Shown here piece after piece: positions 10,849 through 42,475 of a DNA stretch of 42,475 nucleotides. Numbering within the stretch: the stretch's first letter is position 1; every line of letters starts with the position of its first letter. Under the pieces are notes generated by a model, which was not told the DNA's origin, searched no databases, and saw nothing but the letters and a program-made list of their open reading frames with translations. The position numbers were made by a program, and so were the translations under genes. Location of the stretch: positions 1 to 42,475 of the forward strand of contig CAJXAC010000014.1 in NCBI GenBank assembly GCA_913050035.1, written 5' to 3'. The DNA comes from an uncultured Gammaproteobacteria bacterium (lineage in GTDB: Bacteria > Pseudomonadota > Gammaproteobacteria > Pseudomonadales > Azotimanducaceae).

Positions 10849-11634
10849 ATGTCTTCTAAGCAACAACAATCAGACCCATCAGCAGAAGTGAATTTCGGCT
10901 ACCAAAAGGTCTCGGCAGCAGAAAAAACCGAGCGTGTTGGCGCGGTTTTTCGCGCCGTTGCGAAGCGCTACGATGTTATGAACGACATTATGTCATTGGG
11001 TACCCACCGTATCTTTAAGCGCATGGTGCTGCATATGTCAGGGCTACGCCAAGGCCATAAGGTTCTGGATCTTGCTGGCGGCACAGGCGATATGGCCGCG
11101 CTGTTTGCGGACGCCGTGGGTCCTCAGGGCGAAGTAGTGCTCGCGGATTTGAACGAGGACATGATGCGCGTTGGGCGTGATCGACTGCTGGATGATGGCC
11201 TTACACAAATTAGTTTTTGTCGTGCCCCCGCTGAGGCTCTGCCTTTTCCGGACCAACAGTTTGACTGTGCCTGTATCAGCTTTGGCCTGCGTAACTTTAC
11301 CGACAAAGACCAAGCGCTGCGCGAGCTACTACGCGTACTTAAACCCGGTGCTGCACTATTAGTCCTCGAGTTTTCAAAACCCACCGACCCACTGCTGGAA
11401 GGTGCATACAAAGCCTTCCAAACTCTTTGGCCACCTATTGGCAAAGCATTAGTCGGTGATGCCCAACCCTATCAATATCTAGTGGATTCCATTCGTGTGC
11501 ATCCCGATCAGAATGCATTACGCCAGATGTTCTCTGACGCTGGATTTGTCGACGCCGAATACCACAATTTATTGGGCGGCATCGCCGCTATACATCGCGG
11601 TTGCAAGCCTATGAATGACGGTCCAGCCGATTAA
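10849..11634 (+). CDS. ubiE: UbiE, demethylmenaquinol/ubiquinol C-methyltransferase
   Basis: An SAM-dependent C-methyltransferase that adds the ring C-methyl group in ubiquinone (and menaquinone) synthesis, 261 residues. Family landmarks are VFRAVAKRYDVMNDIMSLGTHRIFKR, the SAM-binding motif VLDLAGGTGDMA, DLNEDMMRVGRDR, and the signature CISFGLRNFTDKDQALRELLRVLKPGA. It heads the ubiE-ubiJ-ubiB cluster, with ubiJ starting 5 bases after its stop. The protein acts with the Ubi metabolon at the inner membrane. Confidence 0.97.
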   Translation: MSSKQQQSDPSAEVNFGYQKVSAAEKTERVGAVFRAVAKRYDVMNDIMSLGTHRIFKRMVLHMSGLRQGHKVLDLAGGTGDMAALFADAVGPQGEVVLADLNEDMMRVGRDRLLDDGLTQISFCRAPAEALPFPDQQFDCACISFGLRNFTDKDQALRELLRVLKPGAALLVLEFSKPTDPLLEGAYKAFQTLWPPIGKALVGDAQPYQYLVDSIRVHPDQNALRQMFSDAGFVDAEYHNLLGGIAAIHRGCKPMNDGPAD

Positions 11635-11639
11635 CGACA

Positions 11640-12263
11640 ATGAATTCGTCGGACTTATTCGAGCTTCTGCAGGATTGGGTAAATCAGCTGTCGCGATCCT
11701 GGTTAGCGTTGGATCCGCTGGTGCAACAAAGGCTCCAAAACTTGACCGGGCAAGTAATTGAAGTCGAATGTACACAGCCCGAGCTCACCGCCCACATTAC
11801 TGTTGTGGGCGCAAGCCTAGAATTAAGCCATGGAGCAGCAACAGCACCTAACGTGCAGTTGCGGGGCACCGCGCCAGCACTGGTTGGCCGCGCGCTATCT
11901 ATAGAAAGTAAAGCCGCCGTTGAAGTGAACGGCGACGAAACTCTACTTTTACAATTGCTTGAAATTCTAAGCGGCTATCGGCTTGATCCGACGCCTGCAC
12001 TCGCCAAGCTGATAGGTAATGATCCAGCACAGACCCTTAGCGCCGCCCTCGAATTAGGGGCGCAAACCACAATGGGACTGGTCGAAAGCGGAATTCACGA
12101 CCTAATGCAGCGAAGCACCGGCAGCCTACAGCGTCATTTCACCACTCGCAGCAATGCAGACGCACTGCAAAATCAACTGGATGATATGCGTCTTCGTATC
12201 GACCGTGCCGCAGCCCGCGTCCAGCAGCTCGAGCAATCCCCACGAAGTAGCGCTGAGCAATGA
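11640..12263 (+). CDS. ubiJ: UbiJ, SCP2-domain accessory factor of ubiquinone biosynthesis
   Basis: A 207-residue protein with an SCP2 lipid-binding domain in the first about 110 residues (LTAHITVVGASLELS...PNVQLRGTAPALVGRAL) and a helical C-terminus ending in a coiled coil (NALQNQLDDMRLRIDRAAARVQQLE type). UbiJ, with UbiK, scaffolds the soluble Ubi complex and presents the polyprenyl intermediates. Its identity rests on the domain plus placement between ubiE and ubiB. The stop overlaps the ubiB start by four bases (ATGA), implying translational coupling. Confidence 0.9.
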   Translation: MNSSDLFELLQDWVNQLSRSWLALDPLVQQRLQNLTGQVIEVECTQPELTAHITVVGASLELSHGAATAPNVQLRGTAPALVGRALSIESKAAVEVNGDETLLLQLLEILSGYRLDPTPALAKLIGNDPAQTLSAALELGAQTTMGLVESGIHDLMQRSTGSLQRHFTTRSNADALQNQLDDMRLRIDRAAARVQQLEQSPRSSAEQ

Positions 12264-13813
12264 CACTCCAACAGTGGATCGCGTTGGCGAGGTTAGGCCG
12301 GCACGCCCTTAGGCTCGGACTGCATCACTTTGTCGACGTTAACGAACTTCCAAACGGCTTGGGTAAGCGACTGCTGTCGGTGATGCAAAGACTCTTCCCC
12401 GCACCGGCGGATGACCAAGCCGCTCGGCTGTGTTCGACCGTAGAGTCTCTAGGGCCGGTTTACATTAAGTTAGGGCAGCTCTTATCAACACGTCCCGACT
12501 TATTACCGGCTGCCATCGTTGAGGCATTGACTAAGCTGCAAGATCGGGTCGATCCCATCGAGGCTTTTTTCGTTACCGAGGCCGTGAGCAATCGTCTAGG
12601 GCAACCGTTTGACGAGGTATTTCGCTCCATCGATCCTCAACCGCTGGCCAGTGCCTCTATCGCCCAAGTACACGCCGCGACTTTGCACAACGGTTCAGAA
12701 GTTGTGATCAAGTTAGTGCGGCCCGGTATTGCCCAGCGCATCAACGCGGATATGGACAACTTAGACGCACTGGCTGACTTTCTATGTCGCAACTCAGCCG
12801 TCGCTCGCAGGCTGCATTTAACTCGCATCATGCGCGACCATCGCACTGTGCTTAACCGCGAACTAGATATGTTTGCGGAAGGCCGCAATCAAATACAGCT
12901 ACGACGCAATTTCGCCGACTCTGACTTGTTATATGTGCCGCGAGTTTACAGCGAACATACCCGCCGCGACCTGTTGGTCATGGAGCGCGTCTACGGCGTG
13001 CCGATCGGCGAAGTGGAAACCTTGCGAGCCGCCAATGTAGATTTTCAAGTACTGGCTCATAAAGGCGTCGAAACATTCTTTACCCAAGTGTTTGAGCACA
13101 ACTTTTTCCATGCTGATATGCACCCTGGGAATATTCAGGTCGACATAACCGACCCCAGAAATCCAAGTTATATCGCCCTGGACTGTGCAATCGTTGGATC
13201 GCTGGATCGCCAAGACATCGACTACCTTGCGCAGAACATCCTGGCATTCTTCAACCGGGACTATCGCAGGGTTGTAGATTTGCACTTACGTTCGGGCTGG
13301 ATTCCTGCCACCACCGATGCGGATGCTTTCGAGCAAGTCATTGCCGAAGTCTGCGATCCTATTTTCAATAAACCACTGGCTGAAATTTCTTTCGCCGACT
13401 TTATGACCCAGCTGCTGCGCACGGCTGCCGATTTCGACATGGAGATACAGCCACAACTGGTGCTGTTGCAAAAAACTCTCCTGTATATCGAGGGTCTAGG
13501 TCGGCAGCTCTACCCAGAGTTAGACCTATGGAGTACTGCCTGGCCCTTTATGCAACGCTGGGCAACCCGCAACTTCGGGCCCATAGCGGTTATTACCCAA
13601 ATCCTCGAGCAAGCGCCGGAACTGGCGAGTAATATTTACCGACTGCCTGAACTATTGCGCCAAGATACACTACCTCTACGCATTGAGCTGGCTAAGCAAG
13701 ACCGAGTACTGGAGGATTTACAGCAGCGCCTAACGCACTTACGCCGCAATCAGCGGCTCGGCATTGGAGTTATCATCCTCATCACCGCAGCCGTGGCCAC
13801 AACACTAGCCTAG
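12260..13813 (+). CDS. ubiB: UbiB, atypical ABC1/ADCK-family kinase-like protein of ubiquinone biosynthesis
   Basis: A 517-residue member of the UbiB/Coq8 family. The diagnostic KxGQ motif is in YIKLGQLLSTRPD at about residues 72-84. The nucleotide-binding Ala-rich replacement of the P-loop is PLASASIAQVHAA, the ATP-contact Lys is in VVIKLVRPGI, and the metal site block is FFHADMHPGN. The last 20 or so residues form a membrane helix (LGIGVIILITAAVATTLA). UbiB is an ATPase thought to extract or deliver CoQ precursors rather than a protein kinase. It is the third gene of ubiE-ubiJ-ubiB. hisI, which often follows in Pseudomonas-like genomes, is absent and hisE comes next. Confidence 0.97.
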   Translation: MTLQQWIALARLGRHALRLGLHHFVDVNELPNGLGKRLLSVMQRLFPAPADDQAARLCSTVESLGPVYIKLGQLLSTRPDLLPAAIVEALTKLQDRVDPIEAFFVTEAVSNRLGQPFDEVFRSIDPQPLASASIAQVHAATLHNGSEVVIKLVRPGIAQRINADMDNLDALADFLCRNSAVARRLHLTRIMRDHRTVLNRELDMFAEGRNQIQLRRNFADSDLLYVPRVYSEHTRRDLLVMERVYGVPIGEVETLRAANVDFQVLAHKGVETFFTQVFEHNFFHADMHPGNIQVDITDPRNPSYIALDCAIVGSLDRQDIDYLAQNILAFFNRDYRRVVDLHLRSGWIPATTDADAFEQVIAEVCDPIFNKPLAEISFADFMTQLLRTAADFDMEIQPQLVLLQKTLLYIEGLGRQLYPELDLWSTAWPFMQRWATRNFGPIAVITQILEQAPELASNIYRLPELLRQDTLPLRIELAKQDRVLEDLQQRLTHLRRNQRLGIGVIILITAAVATTLA

Positions 13814-31346: not shown

Positions 31347-31422
<76 letters not shown>

Positions 31423-32077
31423 TTTTCTACTTTAAAGGCTCTATAGGCCCTAGCCAATGTGTTTACCAGCTTTGCAGGGCTTCAGAGGCCTGTCAAAAGC
31501 ACAAAAGTGTCTACCGTTTGACTACCCCGGGGCAGGTGACCATACTCCCTGGCTGCCTAGATATAAGAATGGGCGGACAATCTGGGGGGTGTGGGGGTTA
31601 TTCACTAGGTTCTGGCTTTATAGACTCAGAAGGGCCGGATTGCTTATGACGGGTCATAATTTTTTGTTAAGACGGCGTATCCACGATCCATCAGATACCT
31701 ATGCAAACTAGTGCTCTCAGCTTTTGTTCTTCTACGTTTGTTTTGCGCTTGTCCGTTCGAATTCCAATTAGCATACCTGCTCCCAGTAAGGGCCATAAAA
31801 CAGGGGACAAGGTAGCTCCTGCGGCGAGAACGCCGATGTTTTGGCAGGGTTTCCCAATGATCTTAGTAAAGCCCTATTGATCACCGTTTTGGTGCTGTAT
31901 CGCTGCTACATGATTTTTAAAATCAGTAGCAAAGCAGGGTTCTTTTTCCTTCCACTTCTTCTTGTCCTGCCGCCCTTGATCTTTAGAGGCAAGAAAGCTT
32001 CTGGAGATGGTGACATGCAGTGAAACAGGTTAAACACCGTTCGGGTTCCTTACTACAAAAAAACCTCAACTTTTCTC
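31423..32077. other. 655-base stretch without a supported gene between tRNA-Phe and the flagellin promoter
   Basis: Only short open frames cross this stretch, and none has family features. One (31841-32023, TTG start) encodes a hydrophobic 60-residue peptide. On the minus strand around 31690-31880 a frame without a usable start encodes a helix plus a basic tail (PVLWPLLGAGMLIGIRTDKRK). Both could be remnants of membrane-protein genes. No attachment-site copy of the tRNA-Phe 3' end was seen. It reads as decayed or spacer DNA. Confidence 0.5.
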
Positions 32078-32104
32078 TATAGTTTTCTCAAATGGCACCG
32101 ATAT
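32078..32104 (+). promoter_or_regulatory. Sigma-28 (FliA) promoter of the flagellin gene
   Basis: TATAGTTT (32078-32085), an 11-base spacer, then ACCGATAT (32097-32104) match the flagellar consensus TAAAGTTT-N11-GCCGATAA at 13 of 16 positions with exact spacing. A leader of roughly 140 bases precedes the flagellin ATG. Confidence 0.85.
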
Positions 32105-32254
32105 GATGTCTGAGCGGCAAACTTTTGCCGGTTTTCAACAAAAGTGGCGGGGGTCTGCCGCTGAAGATAAAACTTAGCTGACCTTCTGAATGCTTTGGAG
32201 GGGTCCTAAACAGGATTGAGGATCGGCTTGTACAGTGACTTAAGGAGTTACGGT

Positions 32255-33340
32255 ATGAGCTTGGTCGTAAATACCAACACTGGATCTCTGAACGCGCAAC
32301 GTTCTTTGGCGTCTTCAGGCAAGGAGCTACATACCGCTATGGAGCGACTATCCTCTGGTAAAAAAATCAATTCCGCTGCCGACGATGCAGCAGGTTTTGC
32401 CATCGCAGAGCGTATGACTGCACAGGTTCGTGGTCTCAACATGGCAACCAAGAACGTCAATGACGGCCTATCCATGTTGGCCGTGATTGAGAACGCTACG
32501 AACGACGTCACCGATATGCTGCAACGTATGCGTGAGTTGGCTGTTCAGGCCGCTAACGACACCAATAGCTCCACCGATCGACAATATCTTCAGAGTGAAG
32601 TAGCTGCGTTGATTGAGGAGATAGATAGAGTAGCCTCGCAAACAAGGTACAACGGGGAGCAAGTGCTAGATGGAAGCTTGCAGAACGCTTCATTACAGGT
32701 AGGGACAGATCAAGGGCAAACCGTTTCTTTCTCGATATCCGATATCAGCGCATCAAGCATCGGGGCGCTAAACACCCTCGAGGCGATAAACTATCACGCT
32801 CCCTATGACTCCGTGACCAACACTACCAACTTATCGGACTATTACGGCGATGAACGAGGCTTTGGTAGCGTCAGTGTAGGGGATTATGTTTCTTTCTCCT
32901 TGGATCCATCAAAAAGCTACAAAGTACTGGATATCGTCTCTAGCAACGGTGGTCCACCGGATGAAATTAAAGTTCAGGGCGATCCTGCAGGAGACGGTGC
33001 ACTTGTATCATCGAACACGATTTTTAAAAATGTAGCGCTCAAATACATTGATGTTTCCAGTAATGCCGATCTCGCAGTTGCATCTATATCCACCGCACTA
33101 GAGCAATTGTCGTCCCAACGTGCTGAATACGGCGCCTTACAAAACCGTCTTGAGTACACGGTGTCGAACTTGATGAACGTCAGTGAGTTTACAACCGCCG
33201 CACGATCTAGAATTGAAGATGCTGACTTTGCTGCAGAGAGCGCAAAGCTTGCTAAAGCTCAAGTACTGCAACAGACAGGCACAGCTATGTTGGCTCAATC
33301 AAACTCGTCTTCACAATTGGTGTTATCCCTAATCAGGTAA
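32255..33340 (+). CDS. Flagellin
   Basis: Filament subunit of the flagellum, 361 residues from ATG 32255, which has TAAGGAG 7 bases upstream. An in-frame GTG/TTG further upstream would spoil the canonical MSLVVNTNTGSLNAQR start. The N-terminal D0/D1 region spans about 1-165 (RLSSGKKINSAADDAAGFAIAERM, VNDGLSMLAVIENA). The central variable part is short (about 165-265). The C-terminal D1/D0 spans about 265-361 (YGALQNRLEYTVSNLMNVSEF, AKAQVLQQTGTAMLAQSN). It stands alone: no flaG, fliD, fliS or other flagellin is adjacent. It lies between tRNA-Phe and tRNA-Sec and has a sigma-28 promoter, so it should be expressed late in flagellar assembly. Confidence 0.97.
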   Translation: MSLVVNTNTGSLNAQRSLASSGKELHTAMERLSSGKKINSAADDAAGFAIAERMTAQVRGLNMATKNVNDGLSMLAVIENATNDVTDMLQRMRELAVQAANDTNSSTDRQYLQSEVAALIEEIDRVASQTRYNGEQVLDGSLQNASLQVGTDQGQTVSFSISDISASSIGALNTLEAINYHAPYDSVTNTTNLSDYYGDERGFGSVSVGDYVSFSLDPSKSYKVLDIVSSNGGPPDEIKVQGDPAGDGALVSSNTIFKNVALKYIDVSSNADLAVASISTALEQLSSQRAEYGALQNRLEYTVSNLMNVSEFTTAARSRIEDADFAAESAKLAKAQVLQQTGTAMLAQSNSSSQLVLSLIR

Positions 33341-33393
33341 GCTGAGACAGCCTTAGCTGTATAGCCCCATCTGAGCAATCATCTTTTAAAATA

Positions 33394-33486
33394 TGGCGGA
33401 AGAGGTAGGAGTCGAACCCACCAGACACGTAGTCGCGCCTCAACGGCTTTGAAGGCCGCGCACCCCACCGGGAGCGATACTCTTCC
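33394..33486 (-). tRNA. selC: tRNA-Sec (UCA), selC
   Basis: 93 bases on the minus strand including encoded CCA. It has a UCA anticodon (33450-33452) in a CTTCAAA loop, a six-pair D-stem closed by a CGGT loop, and a long variable arm (about seven pairs, AGGCGCG against CGTGTCT). The T-arm GTGGG-TTCGACT-CCTAC is followed directly by CTCTTCC. These are selenocysteine tRNA features. The acceptor has seven clear pairs (GGAAGAG/CTCTTCC); the eighth pair usual in bacterial tRNA-Sec is not formed because the 3' strand is one base short. selA and selB lie 3-6 kb away. It is convergent with the flagellin gene. Confidence 0.96.
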
Positions 33487-33609
33487 GCCCCCATACTATG
33501 TGGCTTGCGGCCGTGCTGCCATAGGCTTTGCGCGACTGAAATTCGCCTGCCGCCAATTTGCTCGATGCGGCATAATCTGGCTTGACGAAGCATCAGAGGT
33601 AGCTTAACC

Positions 33610-34554
33610 GTGTTAATCAATCTGCAGGAGCTTCGTGGCTATAGCGTCCGCCCGGATCCACAGGCGTTAACCGAAAGTGTTCGGCCTGCCGCACAAGGAG
33701 ATGCAGCTGCGCAAGCGTCGGTCTGTGGCGCCATGCTTTGGGCATCCTTTGCAGCGCCCGGAGCGATTACTCAGGTCTTTGATTTAATCAGCAGAAGCCA
33801 ACTTAGCCTTCGTACTGATCCTGCCGAAATATTGGCCCATAGTGCGGCACCGCCTGAGGAGTTCTGGCAACAATTTGAAGCAACTCTAACCGGGCCAGAA
33901 GAAGGCTACGACGCCACATCGATTACTATGGCGGTAGCTTCGTTGGGGGCCGTGCTCGACGATGACTACGCGGCGCTCAGCGAATGTGCAGCTCTAGCGT
34001 ATATGGGTTCGGACAATGCGGCAGACAAATTTGTACCGCCAATGATTTCCCTTACGGCACTGGCAGACTTTCCCGATGGCAGTTTGGCACGCCAGCTGCT
34101 CAGTATGTGGGTAGACAACGGGTTCGATCCCGAAGTGCTCGATCGTGATGCCATCGGTCTGAATGGTCTTAGTCCAGCTCTGCGTTACCTCAATACGCGC
34201 ATTCTGCAGATGCACGACATCTGGCACTTGGTGGCGGGTTATAAAACCACCAGCCTGCATGAAATGGCCATTTCGGCGTTTCAGTTGGCTCAGTTTGGTC
34301 ACAACTATTCTGCGATGTTTCTCACCACGGTGTGCACCATGAGCCACCTCAAGCAGCCCATGGGCTTTCCATTGCTACTACAAAATTTGTCAGAGGCTTG
34401 GGTTCACGGCTGCGATGCGCCCGACTTTATGAACATAGAGTGGGAGCAAGATTGGCATATGAGTATTGAAGAGGTTCGAGCGAAATATGGCATCGTGCCA
34501 TTTGCCGGCGCTTTTCCAGCAGATTTGCTTGAGCAACTCAGTCAGGCGTCCTGA
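33610..34554 (+). CDS. Coq4-family protein (ubiquinone biosynthesis-like)
   Basis: A 314-residue soluble protein starting with GTG. The C-terminal half carries the Coq4 metal-binding signature H202-D203-x2-H206-x11-E218 (HDIWHLVAGYKTTSLHE), followed by helices (FQLAQFGHNYSAMFLTTV) typical of the family. Residues 1-150 are extra, acidic and not recognised. Eukaryotic Coq4 is reported to act in oxidative decarboxylation at ring carbon C1 and in organising CoQ synthesis. Bacterial members are scattered and mostly uncharacterised. It starts 123 bases from divergent selC. Its 3' end overlaps the end of the decayed transporter by about 13 bases. The family call is good; the function in this organism is inferred. 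Confidence 0.83.
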   Translation: MLINLQELRGYSVRPDPQALTESVRPAAQGDAAAQASVCGAMLWASFAAPGAITQVFDLISRSQLSLRTDPAEILAHSAAPPEEFWQQFEATLTGPEEGYDATSITMAVASLGAVLDDDYAALSECAALAYMGSDNAADKFVPPMISLTALADFPDGSLARQLLSMWVDNGFDPEVLDRDAIGLNGLSPALRYLNTRILQMHDIWHLVAGYKTTSLHEMAISAFQLAQFGHNYSAMFLTTVCTMSHLKQPMGFPLLLQNLSEAWVHGCDAPDFMNIEWEQDWHMSIEEVRAKYGIVPFAGAFPADLLEQLSQAS

Positions 34555-36020
34555 GTGAACTTTGCGATAGCGACCCTCTGTTTACGCCCCCAGACGTCAC
34601 TTTGAATCGTCTTTAGCTGTACACGAGTCAACCGATATTGGCGCAATAACAAAATTGGGATGATGCTGAGAGCTGGAACAAGTATTCCGTCAATAACGCC
34701 TAGCCGAATAATCAAATCTGGATTCAGGCTCTGAGGTTGAGTTTGTACCGGGAATGCGACGACCTACTTAAGCAACAAACCGCCGACAAACAGACGAGGG
34801 CAGTGGTGCTTTTGCCGGCAAAGGCGGTGCCTGCGGAGAACATACCTTCCTGTCGCGGGCCTGTTCGGTGTTAATTCTCGTCAACAATATCCGGAATGAT
34901 CGCGGCGCACATGATGATTAAGATAGCGCCTGCAAGGGACATGACTGCCATGTGCATTACGAGCAATGGCAGCAAAAGTGGTTGACCGTTGTCTGGCCAG
35001 ATACCTGCGAAACGAAAACCTAACTTGGTCATGCCTAAGAGCATGATCAAGGCAACGGTGGTAATGACAATCCGTTGTTTTTCAAATCGACGCTGCAGGG
35101 GTGCAATGAGCGCGAAAGCCGCAGCGGCGCCGACGGCAGCGAAGAAAAACCACTTAATGTCCTTGCTACTGAATTCCCAAAAGTGGAGGTTCATGTAGAC
35201 ATCGAACACTAGGCCTGTGCCTGCAATTGCCGCGGTTGTAACCGCGGCTAAGAAGACCATGCGGAAGTTGCGGTTTTGGAGGGCGCTGATGGTTTGCGAG
35301 ATCAGTGCCCCGAGCCCAACCCTCGATAAGGTTTCACGAGCGTGTGCGAGAAAAGGGTATCTGGTTGAGCGCGGTTAGCGTCGTAATCAGCATCCATAAA
35401 GCGATGAGCCCGCTGACGAGTGCGCCAAAAGGTGCATAGCTATCAGGGTTCAGGAGTCCACTTGGGTCGTTCTCGGCGGGAGGAAAAACCAGCGCATACA
35501 TCACAAACGTGAAAATGGCGCCTACAAACCAACCCGCAGTGACTCCGTAGGTTTGAATGCTCGTATGTTCCTCATATCTGTGTGATAGCTCAATCGACAT
35601 GGCGGCCCAAGGTACCGAGAAAAATGTGAAAAACATCCGAGTGAAGATGGTGAACGTCAGCATCCATGCGGCAAGTTCTCTGTTAGCCAAGACCTGGGTA
35701 GGATGAAACAGCGCATAGAAAGAGAGAGGTGTTGGTAAGATAGAAGCGCGCATGAACAGTTGCCTTCGCCCGAAACGTCAACGAAACTTGTCCGTCCATC
35801 CGCCTACCAGTGGGTCTGAACCCGCATCTACGACCAGAGAAACACCCAGGACGAGAGACGCCCAGGACGCCGACAAGCCGAGGACTCGCGAGTAGTAAAG
35901 CAGTAGTAGTAGCGTATTAAACGCAAAGTCCTTATGTTGCCCGCGTACGGAACCAAACCCGTTGAGGATCTTGATGTGAATAGGCACCGGGCCCTGACGT
36001 TGCCGTGCGTTGACGAACAT
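34542..36020 (-). pseudogene. Decayed GPH-family (MelB-like MFS) sugar/cation symporter
   Basis: Joined across lesions, the minus strand encodes an almost full-length glycoside-pentoside-hexuronide symporter. The start is KILNGFGSVRGQHKDFAFNT, then LVVDAGSDPLVGGWTDKFR. An in-frame TGA (35778-35780) follows, the same frame continues as RFGRRQLFMRASILP, and there is a frameshift near 35340-35400. Next come ISALQNRNFRMVFLAAV and IIPDIVDEN, a TAA (34871-34873), then HRTGPRQEGMFSAGTAFAGK, and a second frameshift near 34800. RLFVGGLLLK is followed by TAG (34764-34766) and a last membrane helix ending LLLRQYRLTR. Five lesions mean it cannot make a functional transporter. The former substrate was probably a sugar or glycoside. 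Confidence 0.88.
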
Positions 36021-36185
36021 GAGTTCATCACGACACCTGAGTTAGCCTGCGTCCTAAAGGTGTTAGTCATAGGGCCTACCGAGAAAATCGCTCCAAACAA
36101 GGGGCTCTTTTTCTGCGCATGAAAGTATTTATTGTATTGGTAATTAAGTGTATTTTGAGGACAACTAAAACTTTGTGGAGGACAT

Positions 36186-36416
36186 ATGGCTGACAATGTT
36201 GCCTTGGGCCCCCTTAACACAGCAAACGTGCAGCGAGCGTCAAGCGATAAGTCCCTTGCCATCAAGCAAGTTGAAAAGGCATTCGAGGCGGCAAGTCAAA
36301 ACGCGCAAGACACTTCCATTGATAGAGGCGTCGAAGTGCTAATCAGTTCTCGTCCGCAAGCGTCTGTCGACCCAACCTACGAAAATTTAGGTGCCGCATC
36401 GCGCAAAGGTAGCTAA
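36186..36416 (+). CDS. Small hypothetical protein, 76 residues
   Basis: Not recognised. A strong ribosome site (GTGGAGG) sits 4 bases before ATG, which supports translation. The protein has no membrane segment or signal peptide. It begins ADNVALGPLNTANVQRAS, has a short amphipathic helix rich in Lys, Ala and Gln (SLAIKQVEKAFEAASQNAQ), then a polar tail. It lies between the decayed transporter (divergent) and selB (convergent, 33 bases away). Its upstream region is AT-rich compared with the neighbours, but no promoter is clear. Confidence 0.55.
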   Translation: MADNVALGPLNTANVQRASSDKSLAIKQVEKAFEAASQNAQDTSIDRGVEVLISSRPQASVDPTYENLGAASRKGS

Positions 36417-36449
36417 TCCTCGTTTTTAGACCTCTTCTTGACGGCTCAC

Positions 36450-38297
36450 TCAGCTGGAGAATGGCCTGAGTACGACCCGCTCATTGCCTTGGCGTCGAGT
36501 GAAGCCTCTGCTGTCAAAAAACTCCAACACGTCGATGGCCACGTTTCGACCAATACCCGATCTGTCACGAAAGTCTTTAACCGTCATGGTTCCTTGAGGG
36601 CTCTCCTCGGTCATGTTTTGGACGAGGGCGGCAATCTCTTGTAGCCGTTTGGGCAGATAAAAGCGGTGATTGCCTATATGGGTTAGCTGGCCAGTTTTAG
36701 ACAATTCGAGTAGGGACCGCTCCAGTAGGGCGAGAGGACGACCTAGCTGTTTCGCCAAATCACCGCAGCTCGGTGCCTGCAATTGATCAAGCAAGGGCTC
36801 TACCTGCTGCCACGTTCCTAGCAGTTCTGGAGGCAGCGTAAGTTCCGCTTGTGGCATAAAGTACTCGCCGCCGCGCTTGATAATTTTGCCGGCCTTTGTC
36901 AGCGCGTCGAGAGCCGGTTGCCGAAGCGGTTTTGCCACCTCGTCGATATCATTGGATAGCAACCGGCCTTGAGAACCTGGTGTGGCGTCGTTGGGCTTGG
37001 CAGCGATTTTTGCAAGGCATCGGTCGAGAGTTTCCTGCCACTGAGCCCGACTCACGACGAGATCGCCAAGCTCCTCGGTCTGCTGTTTTGCCATTAGTGC
37101 TGCCTTACTGTCATCGGTAAGGTTCCAGACCGACTGAAATGTGTTCATTCGGAGTTGCAGTTGCGCTAATAGCGTTTGAAAGCTCTTTGCTGGGTCGGTC
37201 GCACCATAGGCCGACACGAGCTTGCGGTGCTCGAGCGTATTGCGGCGACTGACCTGAGTTTCACTTACGAATAGCACCTCGCCACCGCCCATGGTGGCAT
37301 CCAGTGCCTGATCTCTAAGTACTAGCCGATCGCCGCGATGACACGCCATGGGCGTATCGCAGATCACCTCGGCCCAGGTTTGTTGATCAGGCGCCTCGGT
37401 GAACAGTGCCATACGAGCGGTGCTATGGCGGGTCGCGTGATAGGCATGCACTGGCATCCAATGCCGCAACGGGCGATTGAACGAACTCGCTTTGTCGAGC
37501 CTGATCGTCATAGAGCGAACCCCTTGGGTGGGCTGGGCGGTGATCCAGTCGCCGCGCTTGATATCCTCGAGTGATGCGCCCACGAGATTTAACGCACTGC
37601 GATCACCCCGAGCGCTACGCGCGGCGGGCTGGTCCTCCACACGCATAGAACGCACACGCAACACCTTCCCGGAGGGAAAGTGGTAGACCTGCTGGCCTTC
37701 TTGTATCTCGCCGCTGTGCACCGTACCGGTGGCCACTACCCCAGCACCTTTGATTGTAAAGGCGCGGTCTATGGCCAAGCGAAAGCAGGTGGTGTCCTGA
37801 GTGCCTTGATGGTTTGCGGCTTGCTGCAGCAGATGATCGCTGAGGTCTGCGTAACAGGTGGTGTCTTCTGCACTGGTCTGAAAGACTAAGGCTTCTTGCA
37901 AAAACGTGTTTCGTGTTAGCTGGGAGATCTCTCGCTCGCAGGAGTTTAGTCTCTCTGGACTGACGAGGTCACACTTAGTGAGGGCGACGGTTCCTTGTGT
38001 CACCCCGATCAACGACAGAATCTCCAGATGCTCTAGAGTTTGCGGCATTGGACCATCGTCTGCTGCGATCACAAGTAGGGCATGTTGGTCTGCAGCGACG
38101 CCCGCCACCATGTTGTGTATGAATTTCTGGTGGCCAGGTACGTCGACAAAGCCCAAATGCTCGGTATAAGCAAAGCCCAGGTCGATGGTCAGTCCGCGGG
38201 CCTTTTCCTCGGCTAAGCGATCTGTATCTACGCCCGTGAGTGCGCGGACTAGCGTTGTTTTGCCATGATCCACATGACCTGCGAGAGTAATGATCAT
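36450..38297 (-). CDS. selB: SelB, selenocysteine-specific elongation factor
   Basis: An EF-Tu-like GTPase that delivers Sec-tRNA to UGA codons followed by a SECIS element, 615 residues (E. coli 614). G motifs: [10 protein letters not shown] at 7-16, DVPGHQKFIHNMVAG, and TKCDL. Domains II and III follow (TIKGAGVVATGTVHSGEI). The C-terminal half contains the winged-helix repeats that bind the SECIS hairpin (PSCGDLAKQLGRPLALLERSLLELSKTGQL and the final KDFRDRSGIGRNVAIDVLEFFDSRGFTRR). It starts 13 bases after selA and forms an operon with it. Confidence 0.97.
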   Translation of the reverse strand: MIITLAGHVDHGKTTLVRALTGVDTDRLAEEKARGLTIDLGFAYTEHLGFVDVPGHQKFIHNMVAGVAADQHALLVIAADDGPMPQTLEHLEILSLIGVTQGTVALTKCDLVSPERLNSCEREISQLTRNTFLQEALVFQTSAEDTTCYADLSDHLLQQAANHQGTQDTTCFRLAIDRAFTIKGAGVVATGTVHSGEIQEGQQVYHFPSGKVLRVRSMRVEDQPAARSARGDRSALNLVGASLEDIKRGDWITAQPTQGVRSMTIRLDKASSFNRPLRHWMPVHAYHATRHSTARMALFTEAPDQQTWAEVICDTPMACHRGDRLVLRDQALDATMGGGEVLFVSETQVSRRNTLEHRKLVSAYGATDPAKSFQTLLAQLQLRMNTFQSVWNLTDDSKAALMAKQQTEELGDLVVSRAQWQETLDRCLAKIAAKPNDATPGSQGRLLSNDIDEVAKPLRQPALDALTKAGKIIKRGGEYFMPQAELTLPPELLGTWQQVEPLLDQLQAPSCGDLAKQLGRPLALLERSLLELSKTGQLTHIGNHRFYLPKRLQEIAALVQNMTEESPQGTMTVKDFRDRSGIGRNVAIDVLEFFDSRGFTRRQGNERVVLRPFSS

Positions 38298-38310
38298 TGG
38301 TTGTACAAAC

Positions 38311-39660
38311 TCAAATCTCGACTCGGTTCAGCACGTCGATTAGCTCCTCCAAGGGGTCGGCCCCATGCATGTCCAATAGAACACGCTGGTCTTTGATTCT
38401 GCCAATGATTGGGACCGCTGCGTAGCGCAACGCCTCGGCGAGTTTTTGTGCGCTGACTGTGCTGTGGTTAAGGCTCACGGCAATGCTGTCAATATTCTGA
38501 TCGGGCAGGGCGCCGCTACCGATTTGCGCCTTGCAGGGGACGATGACGCCCTGTAGATCATTGGGTAAGTTGGCGAGAACAGTTTCGGCTCGTTTCTGCA
38601 GTTGCGGCTGCGTCAGCGTCAGGGTTCGCAGCAGCGGTAGATGTTCGCCTAGGCGCTCTGGATTGACATAGTGCTTGAGTGTGGCGTTCAGGATGGCGAG
38701 TGTCACTTTGTCGACTCGAAGTGCCCGCTTCATTGGGTTTTTGCGAATCGCTTCAATCAGATCTTTACCGCCTGCAATCACTCCACACTGTGCGGCGCCG
38801 AGGAGTTTGTCGCCGCTGAATGTCACCAGATCGACGCCCTGTGCCAGCACGCTTTGGGGTGTCGGTTCTTGGGGTAGGTCCCATTTGCCAAGGTCAACCA
38901 GACTACCGCTGCCAAGATCCACACAGCTGGGAATGTTGTGCTTTTTCGCCAATTCGGCAAGCTCTGGGGCCTCTACCGCCTCGGTAAACCCCTCGATGTG
39001 ATAGTTGCTGGGATGGATTTTGAGCAGCATGGAGGCGCGCTCGGCAACCTCGGCAAAGTCTGACAGTCGGGTCCTGTTCGTGGTGCCGACCTCTAGCAGT
39101 CGACAACCCGCACGACTCATCAGTTCTGGTAGACGAAAGCTGCCGCCAATTTCTACTAACTCGCCCCGAGAAACCGGCACCTCGTCATTAAGACCAAATG
39201 TGTTTAGCACCAGCATCAACGCGGCCGCATTGTTGTTCACGATGGTCACCGCTTCACAACCCATCAATTCGCATAGGCGTTCTTCCACAACGGTGTCGCG
39301 CTGGCCACGAGCACCCTTGGCGAGGTCATATTCCAAATTCATTGGCCGCGTCATAAGTGGTTCGATGGCTCGCCACAGCGCCGGGCTCAACAGCGCGCGT
39401 CCCAGATTGGTGTGGATTACTGTGCCGGTAAGATTAAACACTGGCACGTAGTCAGGCTTGGCTTCGGCTGTGTCTAGCGCCGCCGCATAACCCTCAGCCG
39501 CCGTTGCCCATAGGGGCACTTCCCGCGTTGCGCGAATTTGCCTTTGCATTTCTCGCAGTCTCGTCTTTACGGTGGTTGCGCCAAGGACTTCAACTAGATC
39601 AGCCAGAGCATCGCTCTGCATCAGCGTCTCAATGGCGGGTAAGTCGCGGAGTTCTGGCAT
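38311..39660 (-). CDS. selA: SelA, L-seryl-tRNA(Sec) selenium transferase
   Basis: A PLP-dependent decameric enzyme that converts Ser-tRNA(Sec) to Sec-tRNA(Sec) using selenophosphate, 449 residues from ATG 39660, which has GGGGACC upstream. An upstream TTG start at 39714 adds residues absent from the family. Blocks include FNLTGTVIHTNLGRALLS, NNNAAALMLVLN, the PLP Lys285 in TFSGDKLLGAAQCG, and the C-terminal ALRYAAVPIIGRIKDQRVLLDM. It is the first gene of selA-selB. selD, needed for selenophosphate, is not in the window. It is divergent from the dehydrogenase gene at 39868. Confidence 0.97.
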   Translation of the reverse strand: MPELRDLPAIETLMQSDALADLVEVLGATTVKTRLREMQRQIRATREVPLWATAAEGYAAALDTAEAKPDYVPVFNLTGTVIHTNLGRALLSPALWRAIEPLMTRPMNLEYDLAKGARGQRDTVVEERLCELMGCEAVTIVNNNAAALMLVLNTFGLNDEVPVSRGELVEIGGSFRLPELMSRAGCRLLEVGTTNRTRLSDFAEVAERASMLLKIHPSNYHIEGFTEAVEAPELAELAKKHNIPSCVDLGSGSLVDLGKWDLPQEPTPQSVLAQGVDLVTFSGDKLLGAAQCGVIAGGKDLIEAIRKNPMKRALRVDKVTLAILNATLKHYVNPERLGEHLPLLRTLTLTQPQLQKRAETVLANLPNDLQGVIVPCKAQIGSGALPDQNIDSIAVSLNHSTVSAQKLAEALRYAAVPIIGRIKDQRVLLDMHGADPLEELIDVLNRVEI

Positions 39661-39867
39661 GAGGTCCCCGATAAGATGGTGGATAATGCTGGAGCGAGCA
39701 TGTTTTATAGCCAAGGGTGATCTTGGTTGCGAGAAAAAATTTATTGGTTTTTCGCGAGATACTGGTTGCTGGGGCTTTGTGCAGGCGATACTACTCTTGG
39801 CATGATGTACTCGCCCTATGCTGATCGCGGCAAGTCTGCCGTCAGCAACAACGTGAAGAGAGTAAAC

Positions 39868-40758
39868 ATGTCAGAAGAATTCGGCCGAGTCGCCTTCATT
39901 GGATTGGGTGTAATGGGCTATCCCATGGCAGGACATTTAGCCAAGCAGGCAAGCGCAGTGACGGTGTTCAATCGCACCGCTGCCAAGGCCAACCAGTGGG
40001 AACAAGACCATGGCCGGAGCCAAGCGACCTGCCTGTCAGCGACAACACCCAAGGCGGCAGCGGCTGCGGCGGATATCGTTTTTGTCTGCGTGGGCAATGA
40101 CGATGATGTGGCAGAAGTGGTGCTCGGCGCTGACGGCGCCTTAGCAGGCATGTCGCCTGGCTCGTTACTCGTGGATCACACCACCGCATCCCAATCCCTA
40201 GCCCAGAAGCTGGGCGCCGCCTGTGCAATTCAGTCCATTGGCTTTCTTGATGCGCCAGTATCTGGCGGCCAGGCAGGGGCCGAGAACGGTGCGCTAACGG
40301 TTATGGTGGGTGGCAGCGCAGCGGACTACGAGCTTGTAGGGCCTTACTTAGATTGTTACGCCAAGAAACACGCCCTGATGGGTGATGTTGGGTCAGGCCA
40401 GCTAACAAAAATGGTAAATCAGATATGTATTGCCGGCGTGCTGCAGGGGCTCAGCGAGGGTGTGCACTTCGCCCAGCAAGCAGGTCTTGATGTCGATTCG
40501 GTAGTAGACGTGATATCCCAGGGTGCCGCGCAGAGTTGGCAAATGAATAATCGCGCTCATACCATGGCTCGTGACGAGTACGATTTTGGGTTTGCCGTCG
40601 ATTGGATGCGCAAGGACCTAGGTATCGCGCTAAGCACGGCTAAGCAGATCAATGGGCGATTACCTCTGACCGCACTAGTAGATCAGTTTTATGCTGACAT
40701 TCAGAGCGCGGGCGGAGGACGTTGGGATACGTCGAGTTTGCTGCGGCGTCTGAAGTAG
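39868..40758 (+). CDS. NAD(P)-dependent beta-hydroxyacid dehydrogenase (3-hydroxyisobutyrate dehydrogenase family)
   Basis: A 296-residue dehydrogenase starting at ATG 39868, with a GAAGAGAG site upstream. Rossmann motif GLGVMGYPMAGHLA lies at about 12-25. The family substrate-binding signature is DAPVSGGQAGAENGALTVMVGG and the catalytic Lys is in GQLTKMVNQICIAG (about residue 174). Members oxidise 3-hydroxyisobutyrate, tartronate semialdehyde or related acids. Substrate cannot be told from sequence, and the neighbours (selA upstream, citrate synthase convergent) do not decide it. The open frame extends back to 39727, but that extension has no family similarity. Confidence 0.92.
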   Translation: MSEEFGRVAFIGLGVMGYPMAGHLAKQASAVTVFNRTAAKANQWEQDHGRSQATCLSATTPKAAAAAADIVFVCVGNDDDVAEVVLGADGALAGMSPGSLLVDHTTASQSLAQKLGAACAIQSIGFLDAPVSGGQAGAENGALTVMVGGSAADYELVGPYLDCYAKKHALMGDVGSGQLTKMVNQICIAGVLQGLSEGVHFAQQAGLDVDSVVDVISQGAAQSWQMNNRAHTMARDEYDFGFAVDWMRKDLGIALSTAKQINGRLPLTALVDQFYADIQSAGGGRWDTSSLLRRLK

Positions 40759-40793
40759 CACCAGCAGCACGTTAGGGATAGCGATCAGGCAAG

Positions 40794-40815
40794 GGCGCGG
40801 GGTAGGGCCCGCGCC
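40794..40815. terminator. GC-rich hairpin between two convergent genes
   Basis: GGCGCGGG (40794-40801) and CCCGCGCC (40808-40815) form an eight-pair stem with a six-base loop, 35 bases after the dehydrogenase stop and 19 before the end of gltA. There is no T-tract on either side, so termination is inferred from position and stability. Confidence 0.5.
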
Positions 40816-40834
40816 ATACGAGCAGCGTCTTAGG

Positions 40835-42118
40835 CTAGCGGTTGGCAACGTCAACGAAGTCACGCTTGGGGCTGCCAGTGTACAGCTGGCGCGGACGGCC
40901 AATCTTGTAGCTGCCCCCAATCATTTCGCACCAGTGCGCGATCCAACCCGGGGTGCGTCCGGTAGCGAATATTACCGTGAACATTTCTACCGGTATGCCG
41001 ATGGCTTTCAAGATGATGCCGGAATAGAAATCTACGTTTGGATACAAACGCTTCTCAACGAAGTAATCGTCTTCCAGAGCTATACGCTCAAGTTCCTTTG
41101 CCATTGCGAGAACAGGATCGTCCTGTACACCCAGTTCCTCTAGCACCTCGTGGCAGGTTTGCTGCATCACTTTTGCGCGTGGATCGTAGTTTTTATAAAC
41201 CCGGTGACCGAAGCCCATAATGCGGAACGGATCGTCCTTATCCTTTGCACGACGCACGTATTCTGGAATTTTATCGACGCTGCCGATTTCATCGAGCATG
41301 TTAAGCACCGCTTCGTTTGCGCCGCCATGGGATGGGCCCCACAGAGCCGCAATGCCTGCGGCGACACTGGCAAATGGATTAGCGCCGGTTGAACCTGCTA
41401 GCCGTACGGTTGAGGTCGATGCGTTCTGCTCGTGGTCGGCGTGCAGCAGGAAAATACGATCCATCGCCTTGGCCAGTGTGGGACTGACTTCGTAATCTTC
41501 GCATGGCGTGGCAAACATCATGTGTAGGAAGTTCTCGGCATAGCCCAGATCGTTGCGGGGATAAATAAAGGGCTGGCCTTGAGCATGCTTGTAGCTCATT
41601 GCCGCCAGCGTTGGCATCTTCGCAATCAATCGGTGCGCCGTAATCATGCGATGTTGTGGATCATCAATGTCCAGAGAGTCGTGATAGAACGAAGAAAGTG
41701 CTCCAATGACGCTACACATGATGGCCATCGGGTGCGCATCGGGTCGAAAGCCTTTGAAGAAGCTGCGCAACTGCTCGTTGACCATGGTGTGGTGTTTAAT
41801 AGTGTCGACAAAGCTGTCCTTGTCTTTGGCGTTGGGCAGTTCGCCGTTCAGCAGCAGGTAGCAGACTTCCAGGAAGTCGGAGTGCTCGGCCAGCTGGTCA
41901 ATGGGGTAGCCGCGGTGCAGCAAAACACCGTTGGCGCCATCGATGTATGTGATGGCCGATTCGCAGGCTGCGGTGGATACAAATCCGGGGTCGTAAGTGA
42001 AAACGCCTTCCTGTACCAGGCCGCGTACGTCAATAACGTCAGGGCCGACGGTGCCGGAATAAACCGGTAGCTCAATGGACTTATCTCCCACCGAGAGCGT
42101 GGCTTTCCTGTCGGTCAT
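40835..42118 (-). CDS. gltA: Citrate synthase
   Basis: Condenses oxaloacetate and acetyl-CoA to citrate, 427 residues, the long gram-negative hexameric type with an N-terminal beta domain ([29 protein letters not shown]). Active-site blocks: [22 protein letters not shown] and [17 protein letters not shown], with VDFYSGI near the C-terminus. It ends with the [16 protein letters not shown] tail usual for this branch. A clear sigma-70 promoter lies upstream. In related genomes gltA is divergent from sdhCDAB, which would lie just right of the window. Confidence 0.98.
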
Positions 42119-42205
42119 GGTGCTCTCCTGTCTGATTAGCTATAACAGCTTTTCTGCATGTGTAGATGCGCCAGAAAGCGCGTATTATCGCAAAACTGGC
42201 GGCAA

Positions 42206-42233
42206 AATATAGGGCGTCAGCTTTTTTTGTCAA
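42206..42233 (-). promoter_or_regulatory. Sigma-70 promoter of gltA
   Basis: On the minus strand, TTGACA (42228-42233), a 16-base spacer and TATATT (42206-42211) lie about 90 bases upstream of the gltA ATG. The -35 is perfect and the -10 matches five of six bases. Confidence 0.75.
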
Positions 42234-42384
42234 TGCACTCGCGGAGAAAACGGCAAATTTCTTCCCGTTTGTAAATGAGGGATATCCGGAATATCGGGCC
42301 CCTGGGGCGGAAATTGGTTTTGTCAATAAGCCTTATAGATGGGTAGAGGCTGCAAGCTGCAAGGCCTGGAGGGCGATTGCAAGT

Positions 42385-42413
42385 TTGTAATTACCGGGGT
42401 GTCTCCTTATAAT
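42385..42413 (+). promoter_or_regulatory. Sigma-70 promoter firing out of the window (probably sdhCDAB)
   Basis: TTGTAA (42385-42390), a 17-base spacer and a perfect TATAAT (42408-42413) point rightward. The transcript start would be near 42420 and the gene lies beyond the window. Succinate dehydrogenase is inferred from the usual gltA/sdh arrangement only. Otherwise the 357 bases from 42119 contain no gene I can support. Confidence 0.72.
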
Positions 42414-42475
42414 CCGTAGCCCGGAATCGGGGATGCACCGGCTTATGGGCTTGAGTATAGCAAGCTACCGGGTAG

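Follow-up and report, generated by a model that had tools for sequence, protein, structure and literature searches.

The 42,475-nucleotide stretch of DNA analyzed in this study (referred to as the window) is contig C14 of the draft genome G000, which is 2.6 Mb in size and 92% complete. G000, the source genome, and 24 further genomes of the same genus label (25 genomes altogether) are designated here as the group; they are oligotrophic marine Pseudomonadales of the K189A/HTCC2089 type, and their close relatives are the K189A clade, HTCC2089, OM182, and NP63. Positions 33610..34554 on the forward strand of the window are occupied by a long-form Coq4-family gene, which initiates with GTG directly downstream of an AGAGGT-like ribosome site and encodes 314 amino acid residues. 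Approximately 20 kb away, at positions 10849..13813 on the same strand, we found ubiE (PF01209), an SCP2-domain gene in the position of ubiJ (PF02036), and ubiB (PF03109), in agreement with the initial annotation, which had listed ubiE-ubiJ-ubiB in the same window. UbiB is present as a single copy in G000 and matches that of G002 at 95%.

The initial annotation regarded the 314-residue protein as a bacterial Coq4-family member bearing a full metal-site motif, and both claims held. The protein matched PF05019 (Coq4) in Pfam with 64.3 bits and an E-value of 1.3e-17 (the cut-off is 22.9), and its residues 202-218 (HDIWHLVAGYKTTSLHE; positions 34213..34263, forward strand) fit the H-D-x2-H-x11-E pattern exactly. 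The four ligand residues, H202, D203, H206, and E218, were each invariant in an alignment of 65 relatives across Gamma- and Alphaproteobacteria. With a dN/dS of approximately 0.11 against the two orthologs in MAG NP63 and G007, the window coq4 is under purifying selection, and its motif is intact. The comparison of a predicted structure with Coq4, which had been proposed along with these claims, pointed in the same direction. The AlphaFold2 model is confident (mean pLDDT of 91), and its residues 78-297 (positions 33841..34500, forward strand) matched the Coq4-family structures of Nostoc, 6e12_B and 3msq_A, with Z scores of 15.8 and 15.2, respectively (VIA against PDB), while the next-best PDB chain reached a Z score of only 3.3. 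Foldseek also matched the model to two Nostoc Coq4-family structures with E-values of approximately 1e-6.

The extra N-terminal region, which had been estimated at roughly 150 residues, turned out to be about half of that size. The PF05019 match covers profile positions 73-219 and starts at residue 146 of the protein, but the Coq4 fold starts near residue 78; the structural match begins at residue 78-79 of the model, and the true extension is thus approximately 77 residues long (residues 1-77; positions 33610..33840, forward strand), lying outside the match to 3msq/6e12. In the model, the extension comprises helices at residues 5-11, 17-28, 32-47, and 50-64, and long-form relatives carry it as well. 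Altogether, the window gene is a genuine Coq4-family member. Bacterial Coq4-family proteins have already been annotated as such, and the window protein thus represents a longer version of a family that was known before; our literature search found no paper on Coq4 in gammaproteobacteria.

The gene lies in a portion of the window of which the origin has to be considered separately. Positions 1-31425 are collinear with G002 and G004 at approximately 90%, and this homology ends right after a tRNA-Phe gene (31347-31422; ARAGORN). A tRNA-Sec gene (selC; 33395..33487, reverse strand; ARAGORN) marks the left edge of a block shared with G007, G024, and NP63, and the homology of the loci L050, L077, and L113 begins at the same point. 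Rightwards of tRNA-Sec, synteny was found with G007, G024, G001, G011, and G023, and the block is 94.7% identical to MAG NP63 over 6.2 kb. The two tRNA genes point toward one another (31347-33487), with the 3' end of each on the inner side, and flank a variable 2 kb segment, inside which a lone flagellin gene was observed. As the homology breaks at both tRNA ends, the region resembles integration hot spots; no attR copy of the tRNA-Phe end was found in the window. Contig C38 of G000 encodes another long Coq4, which is 56% identical to the window copy and, in the tree, closest to that of G002, being the native copy of the G002/G004 lineage. Two origins of the window copy thus come into question: it may be a second paralog, retained or acquired, within the variable region bounded by tRNA-Phe and selC, or it may result from a join made during assembly or binning. 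We regard it as somewhat unlikely that the right arm (31425-42475) was joined in assembly or binning with a related species, which would make the window copy foreign to the genome. The end of the collinearity with G002/G004 right after tRNA-Phe, the synteny of the block from selC rightwards with G007, G024, and G001 together with its closeness to NP63, and the separate native Coq4 on C38 are all consistent with such a join. Nevertheless, the sequences of G002 and G004 likewise diverge from one another directly behind tRNA-Phe, as would be seen at a hot spot of integration, and the GC content of the right arm is like that of the rest of the window; the tetranucleotide and GC profiles do not decide the origin of the arm. 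This question is independent of the functional readings discussed below, and what we conclude about the family holds irrespective of the window copy.

Downstream of coq4, the remains of a GPH/MFS_2 transporter gene are found in frame-shifted pieces (34871..36020, reverse strand), with PF13347 matching two separate fragments; the transporter is intact in relatives (522-550 amino acid residues in L113 and L114). Between these remains and selB, there is an open reading frame of 76 amino acid residues (36186-36416, forward strand), and the spot is conserved with approximately 72-73% DNA identity in G001 and G023. In view of this conservation, the reading frame may be a real small gene.

We then surveyed the genes for ubiquinone synthesis across the group by profile searches, on which all gene absences reported here rest. 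The initial annotation had asked whether UbiD, UbiX, or UbiH is missing. UbiD was detected in none of the 25 group genomes, including those that are 97-99% complete, and is present in 10 of the 13 other families of the order. Likewise, no group genome possessed UbiX over the cut-off, as opposed to 9 of the 13 order relatives. The incompleteness of the drafts does not explain the absence of both from all 25 genomes. Coq7 was found in 24 of the 25 genomes, and UbiA over the cut-off in all but three drafts. Two COQ7-family genes (approximately 220-260 and 180-200 amino acid residues) were observed in G000, G001, G004, G007, G008, G012, G014, G019, and G021-G023. The answer for UbiH is less clear-cut. 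Each group genome has a single strong UbiH/I/F-type hydroxylase as against two to three in the near-complete relatives with UbiD, and, in a tree including the three E. coli enzymes, this hydroxylase was placed outside the E. coli UbiH clade. The UbiD-less relatives G027, G034, and G036 also had no UbiH-clade member in the same tree, whereas all four UbiD-bearing relatives tested had one. Both the count and the tree position thus agree with a missing UbiH, but the remaining hydroxylase of G000 still scores best with the UbiH profile, at 259.5 bits and far under the cut-off of 392. As UbiD and UbiX are absent, only one UbiH/I/F-type hydroxylase is present, and the rest of the tested pathway is kept, a non-classical C1 route must exist, and it is well supported that C1 decarboxylation and hydroxylation in the group are carried out by something other than UbiD/UbiX/UbiH. 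An alternative route to CoQ, as raised in the initial annotation, is accordingly needed; whether Coq4 provides it is a separate matter.

Coq4 of any kind was found in 23 of the 25 group genomes and in all 19 of those that are at least 81% complete, but in only 2 of the 369 other gammaproteobacteria. Nevertheless, these sequences do not represent one conserved gene. The long form, to which the window protein belongs, is missing in the near-complete genomes G006, G008, G010, and G018, and a short form (RQRDMHDLWHT...YGRDELGE) is missing in G000, G002-G005, G016, G017, and G020. The two forms are far apart in the tree and non-orthologous, and neither is universal in the group. Within the group, the presence of Coq4 coincides with the loss of UbiD/UbiX, but all 25 genomes belong to a single lineage and amount to just one event when an association is judged. 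There are mismatches elsewhere: no Coq4 was found in the UbiD-less relatives G027, G034, and G036, and Coq4 occurs together with UbiD in G032 and G074, outside the group. A further genome of the class, G050, possesses Coq4 but neither UbiD nor the flavin monooxygenase (FMO) described below over the threshold.

The genes around Coq4 vary from one subclade to another. The short-form genes have neighbors for acyl-CoA synthetase, GMC oxidoreductase, GST, and beta-lactamase-fold (esterase) proteins. The long-form genes reside in two contexts, one with the GPH/MFS_2 transporter and selB-selA and the other with S41 peptidase, response regulator, and photolyase genes. In none of the contexts examined across the group subclades did quinone genes adjoin Coq4, and no partner of a eukaryote-like COQ complex was found beside it. 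We abandoned the neighborhoods as a guide to the substrate, as no consistent partner emerged (the commonest one, the GPH/MFS_2 transporter, appeared at 11 of 80 loci). In plasmid records, the only Coq4s were short ones of cyanobacteria and sphingomonads, with uninformative contexts. Long Coq4s also occur in Halieaceae, Parvibaculum, Phenylobacterium, and Hyphomonas, and, among cultured relatives, in Halioglobus japonicus and Litorirhabdus. The long Coq4s of Acidobacteriota and Myxococcota were considered as proof of a non-quinone role but set aside, as the tree places them next to Hyphomonas on near-zero branches or in the vicinity of Litorirhabdus, a position for which mis-binning or recent transfer is likely. 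The sequences concerned, close or near-identical to those of Litorirhabdus or Hyphomonas, are L184, L187, and L191 (from two Acidobacteriota MAGs and one Myxococcota MAG) and, in a MAG of the group, L070 (G020:C198); these are probably mis-binned contigs or very recent transfers.

A second candidate for the C1 step emerged from weak matches to TIGR01988, a Ubi-hydroxylase profile. G000 carries its own copy of this FMO at C63:8428-9606 (reverse strand). The FMO, which is also encoded at L193:1420-2670 (reverse strand), is conserved among the group genomes as well as in UbiD-less relatives. The best PDB relatives of the C63 protein were 8x38, 8rqh, 8r2t, 8uiq, and 8gsm, and its solved relatives include a decarboxylative vanillate 1-hydroxylase, tropone 2-monooxygenase, 6-hydroxynicotinate 3-monooxygenase, and 8gsm, labeled as '4-hydroxybenzoate decarboxylase.' These matches assign it to the salicylate/decarboxylative-hydroxylase branch of FMOs, and, in the tree, it was separated from UbiH/I/F with a branch support of 100%. 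In Rhodobacter capsulatus, the salicylate-hydroxylase-like FMO UbiN carries out the decarboxylative hydroxylation at C1 and can rescue an E. coli strain from which ubiD and ubiH are missing (PMC10626278). We term the group protein UbiN-type in the sense of a likeness to this broad family.

With a profile built from 19 members, including the sequences of G034 and G036, the UbiN-type FMO scored above 500 bits in 20 of the 25 group genomes, among them all 19 that are at least 81% complete; the other five genomes, in which it was missing, are only 64-80% complete drafts. Among the order relatives without UbiD, Coq4, or UbiX over the cut-off, the scores were 552 (G034), 562 (G036), and 354 (G027), as against at most 283 bits in all 10 order relatives with UbiD. 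When the best five candidates per genome were scored across the class, the further scores above 400 bits were found in G363, G263, G163, G343, and G091, all without UbiD, and in G318, whose UbiD paralogs are all weak (1.6e-112). G125 and G232, which belong to the same genus as G318 (f104/g105), possess canonical UbiD (approximately 1e-171) and no such FMO. Within this genus, canonical UbiD has apparently been exchanged for the UbiN-type FMO in G318. Such exchanges between UbiD and the FMO are seen in several families and do not require Coq4.

The view of Coq4 as the obvious replacement for UbiD was weakened once the TIGR01988 matches proved to be a conserved FMO of the decarboxylative-hydroxylase type. 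The FMO tracks the loss of UbiD better than Coq4 does, as it occurs in UbiD-less relatives without Coq4, while Coq4 is patchy, is not one conserved gene, and never stands beside quinone genes; the FMO thus fits the C1 gap better, and Coq4 as the provider of the alternative route is not supported above it. With regard to ubiquinone, the UbiN-type FMO probably matters more than the window Coq4. Our preferred reading, to which we give an even chance, is that Coq4 works mainly on a different hydrophobic acid, aromatic or lipid in nature, or serves at most as a backup, and is not the main C1 enzyme. In this reading, the window protein is a soluble, all-helical Coq4-fold metalloprotein of the long subfamily, in which H202, D203, H206, and E218 would hold one divalent metal, probably zinc, at a hydrophobic pocket. 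The metal would activate the carboxylate of the bound acid, which Coq4 would decarboxylate, possibly oxidatively, and the C1 step of ubiquinone synthesis would more probably be performed by the UbiN-type FMO (C63) via decarboxylative hydroxylation. Three observations speak against this preferred reading: the near-confinement of Coq4 to the group within the class (19 of 19 versus 2 of 369) is in keeping with a connection to the loss of UbiD, G050 possesses Coq4 although both UbiD and the FMO over the threshold are absent from it, and the C63 FMO has neighbors with a catabolic look (SDR, VOC, TetR, and acyl-CoA synthetase, as named from their sequences) and relatives at 42-47% identity in records of Nonomuraea, Rhodococcus, and Paraburkholderia. 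Such neighbors and relatives make a role in degradation possible, and the group FMO may be a degradation enzyme.

The above distribution would suit Coq4 being the C1 enzyme itself, exchanging, in a single step, the ring carboxyl of polyprenyl-4-hydroxybenzoate for a hydroxyl group, as reported for human COQ4. Coq4, one FMO, and Coq7 would then constitute a eukaryote-like bacterial route in place of UbiD, UbiX, and UbiH, with which the absence of UbiD/UbiX, the presence of a single Ubi-hydroxylase, Coq7, and UbiA, and the intact metal motif agree. COQ4 activity on this ring has also been reported: a COQ4 protein sharing this motif acts as a Zn-dependent decarboxylase in vitro and is inactivated in double mutants of the motif residues (PMC7615680), and the human protein performs a one-step oxidative decarboxylation according to the summary in PMC11495197. 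We nevertheless consider this unlikely, as neither kind of Coq4 is universal in the group, G027, G034, and G036 lack both UbiD and Coq4 while G032 and G074 carry both, the UbiN-type FMO covers every UbiD-less case in the order, and no quinone genes are adjacent. It is more doubtful still that this marine lineage replaced UbiD-UbiX-UbiH by a eukaryote-like oxidative decarboxylation in which two unrelated Coq4 kinds serve one and the same function, each in its own set of species, perhaps alongside the FMO. A non-catalytic Coq4, binding lipid or scaffolding the machinery for ubiquinone or another membrane lipid around a structural metal site, would accord with the title of 6e12, a complex with oleic acid and magnesium, and with the structural role proposed for yeast Coq4 (PMC11495197). 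The invariance of the four metal ligands in 65 diverged sequences however resembles that of an active site, and eukaryote-like COQ complex partners are missing beside Coq4, so that we hold this reading to be improbable.

The more general point is the loss of UbiD/UbiX alongside a UbiN-type FMO in marine gammaproteobacteria. The UbiD/FMO exchange, including that within one genus, points to UbiN-type C1 chemistry being distributed across gammaproteobacteria, and this matters for the prediction of ubiquinone pathways from genomes. A lineage that lacks UbiD/UbiX and possesses both the UbiN-type FMO and Coq4 offers a clear setting in which the two can be told apart by simple complementation. The mode of action of COQ4 is disputed between plain Zn-dependent decarboxylation (PMC7615680) and one-step oxidative decarboxylation (as summarized in PMC11495197), and, if the Coq4-based replacement were true, the group would offer a natural bacterial model for this reaction.

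Compared with E. coli, in which UbiD/UbiX/UbiH serve the same pathway step, the group is without UbiD, UbiX, and, among the hydroxylases tested, a UbiH-clade member. R. capsulatus UbiN performs the step expected of Coq4 with a fold and a cofactor unrelated to those of Coq4, and the same broad family of salicylate-hydroxylase-like FMO is conserved in the group. The Nostoc proteins 3MSQ (Npun02000094) and 6E12 (Alr8543) share the fold with the window protein over residues 78-297 (Z scores of 15-16, approximately 20% identity) but not the N-terminal extension. Cyanobacteria make plastoquinone, not ubiquinone, and the role of the Nostoc Coq4-family proteins is thus not at C1 of ubiquinone. Human and yeast COQ4 (PF05019) have the HDxxHx11E motif and the Coq4 fold in common with the window protein, which differs in its approximately 77 extra N-terminal residues, its bacterial origin, and showing no sign of a COQ complex; unlike human and yeast COQ4, several non-orthologous Coq4 kinds occur here in one lineage.
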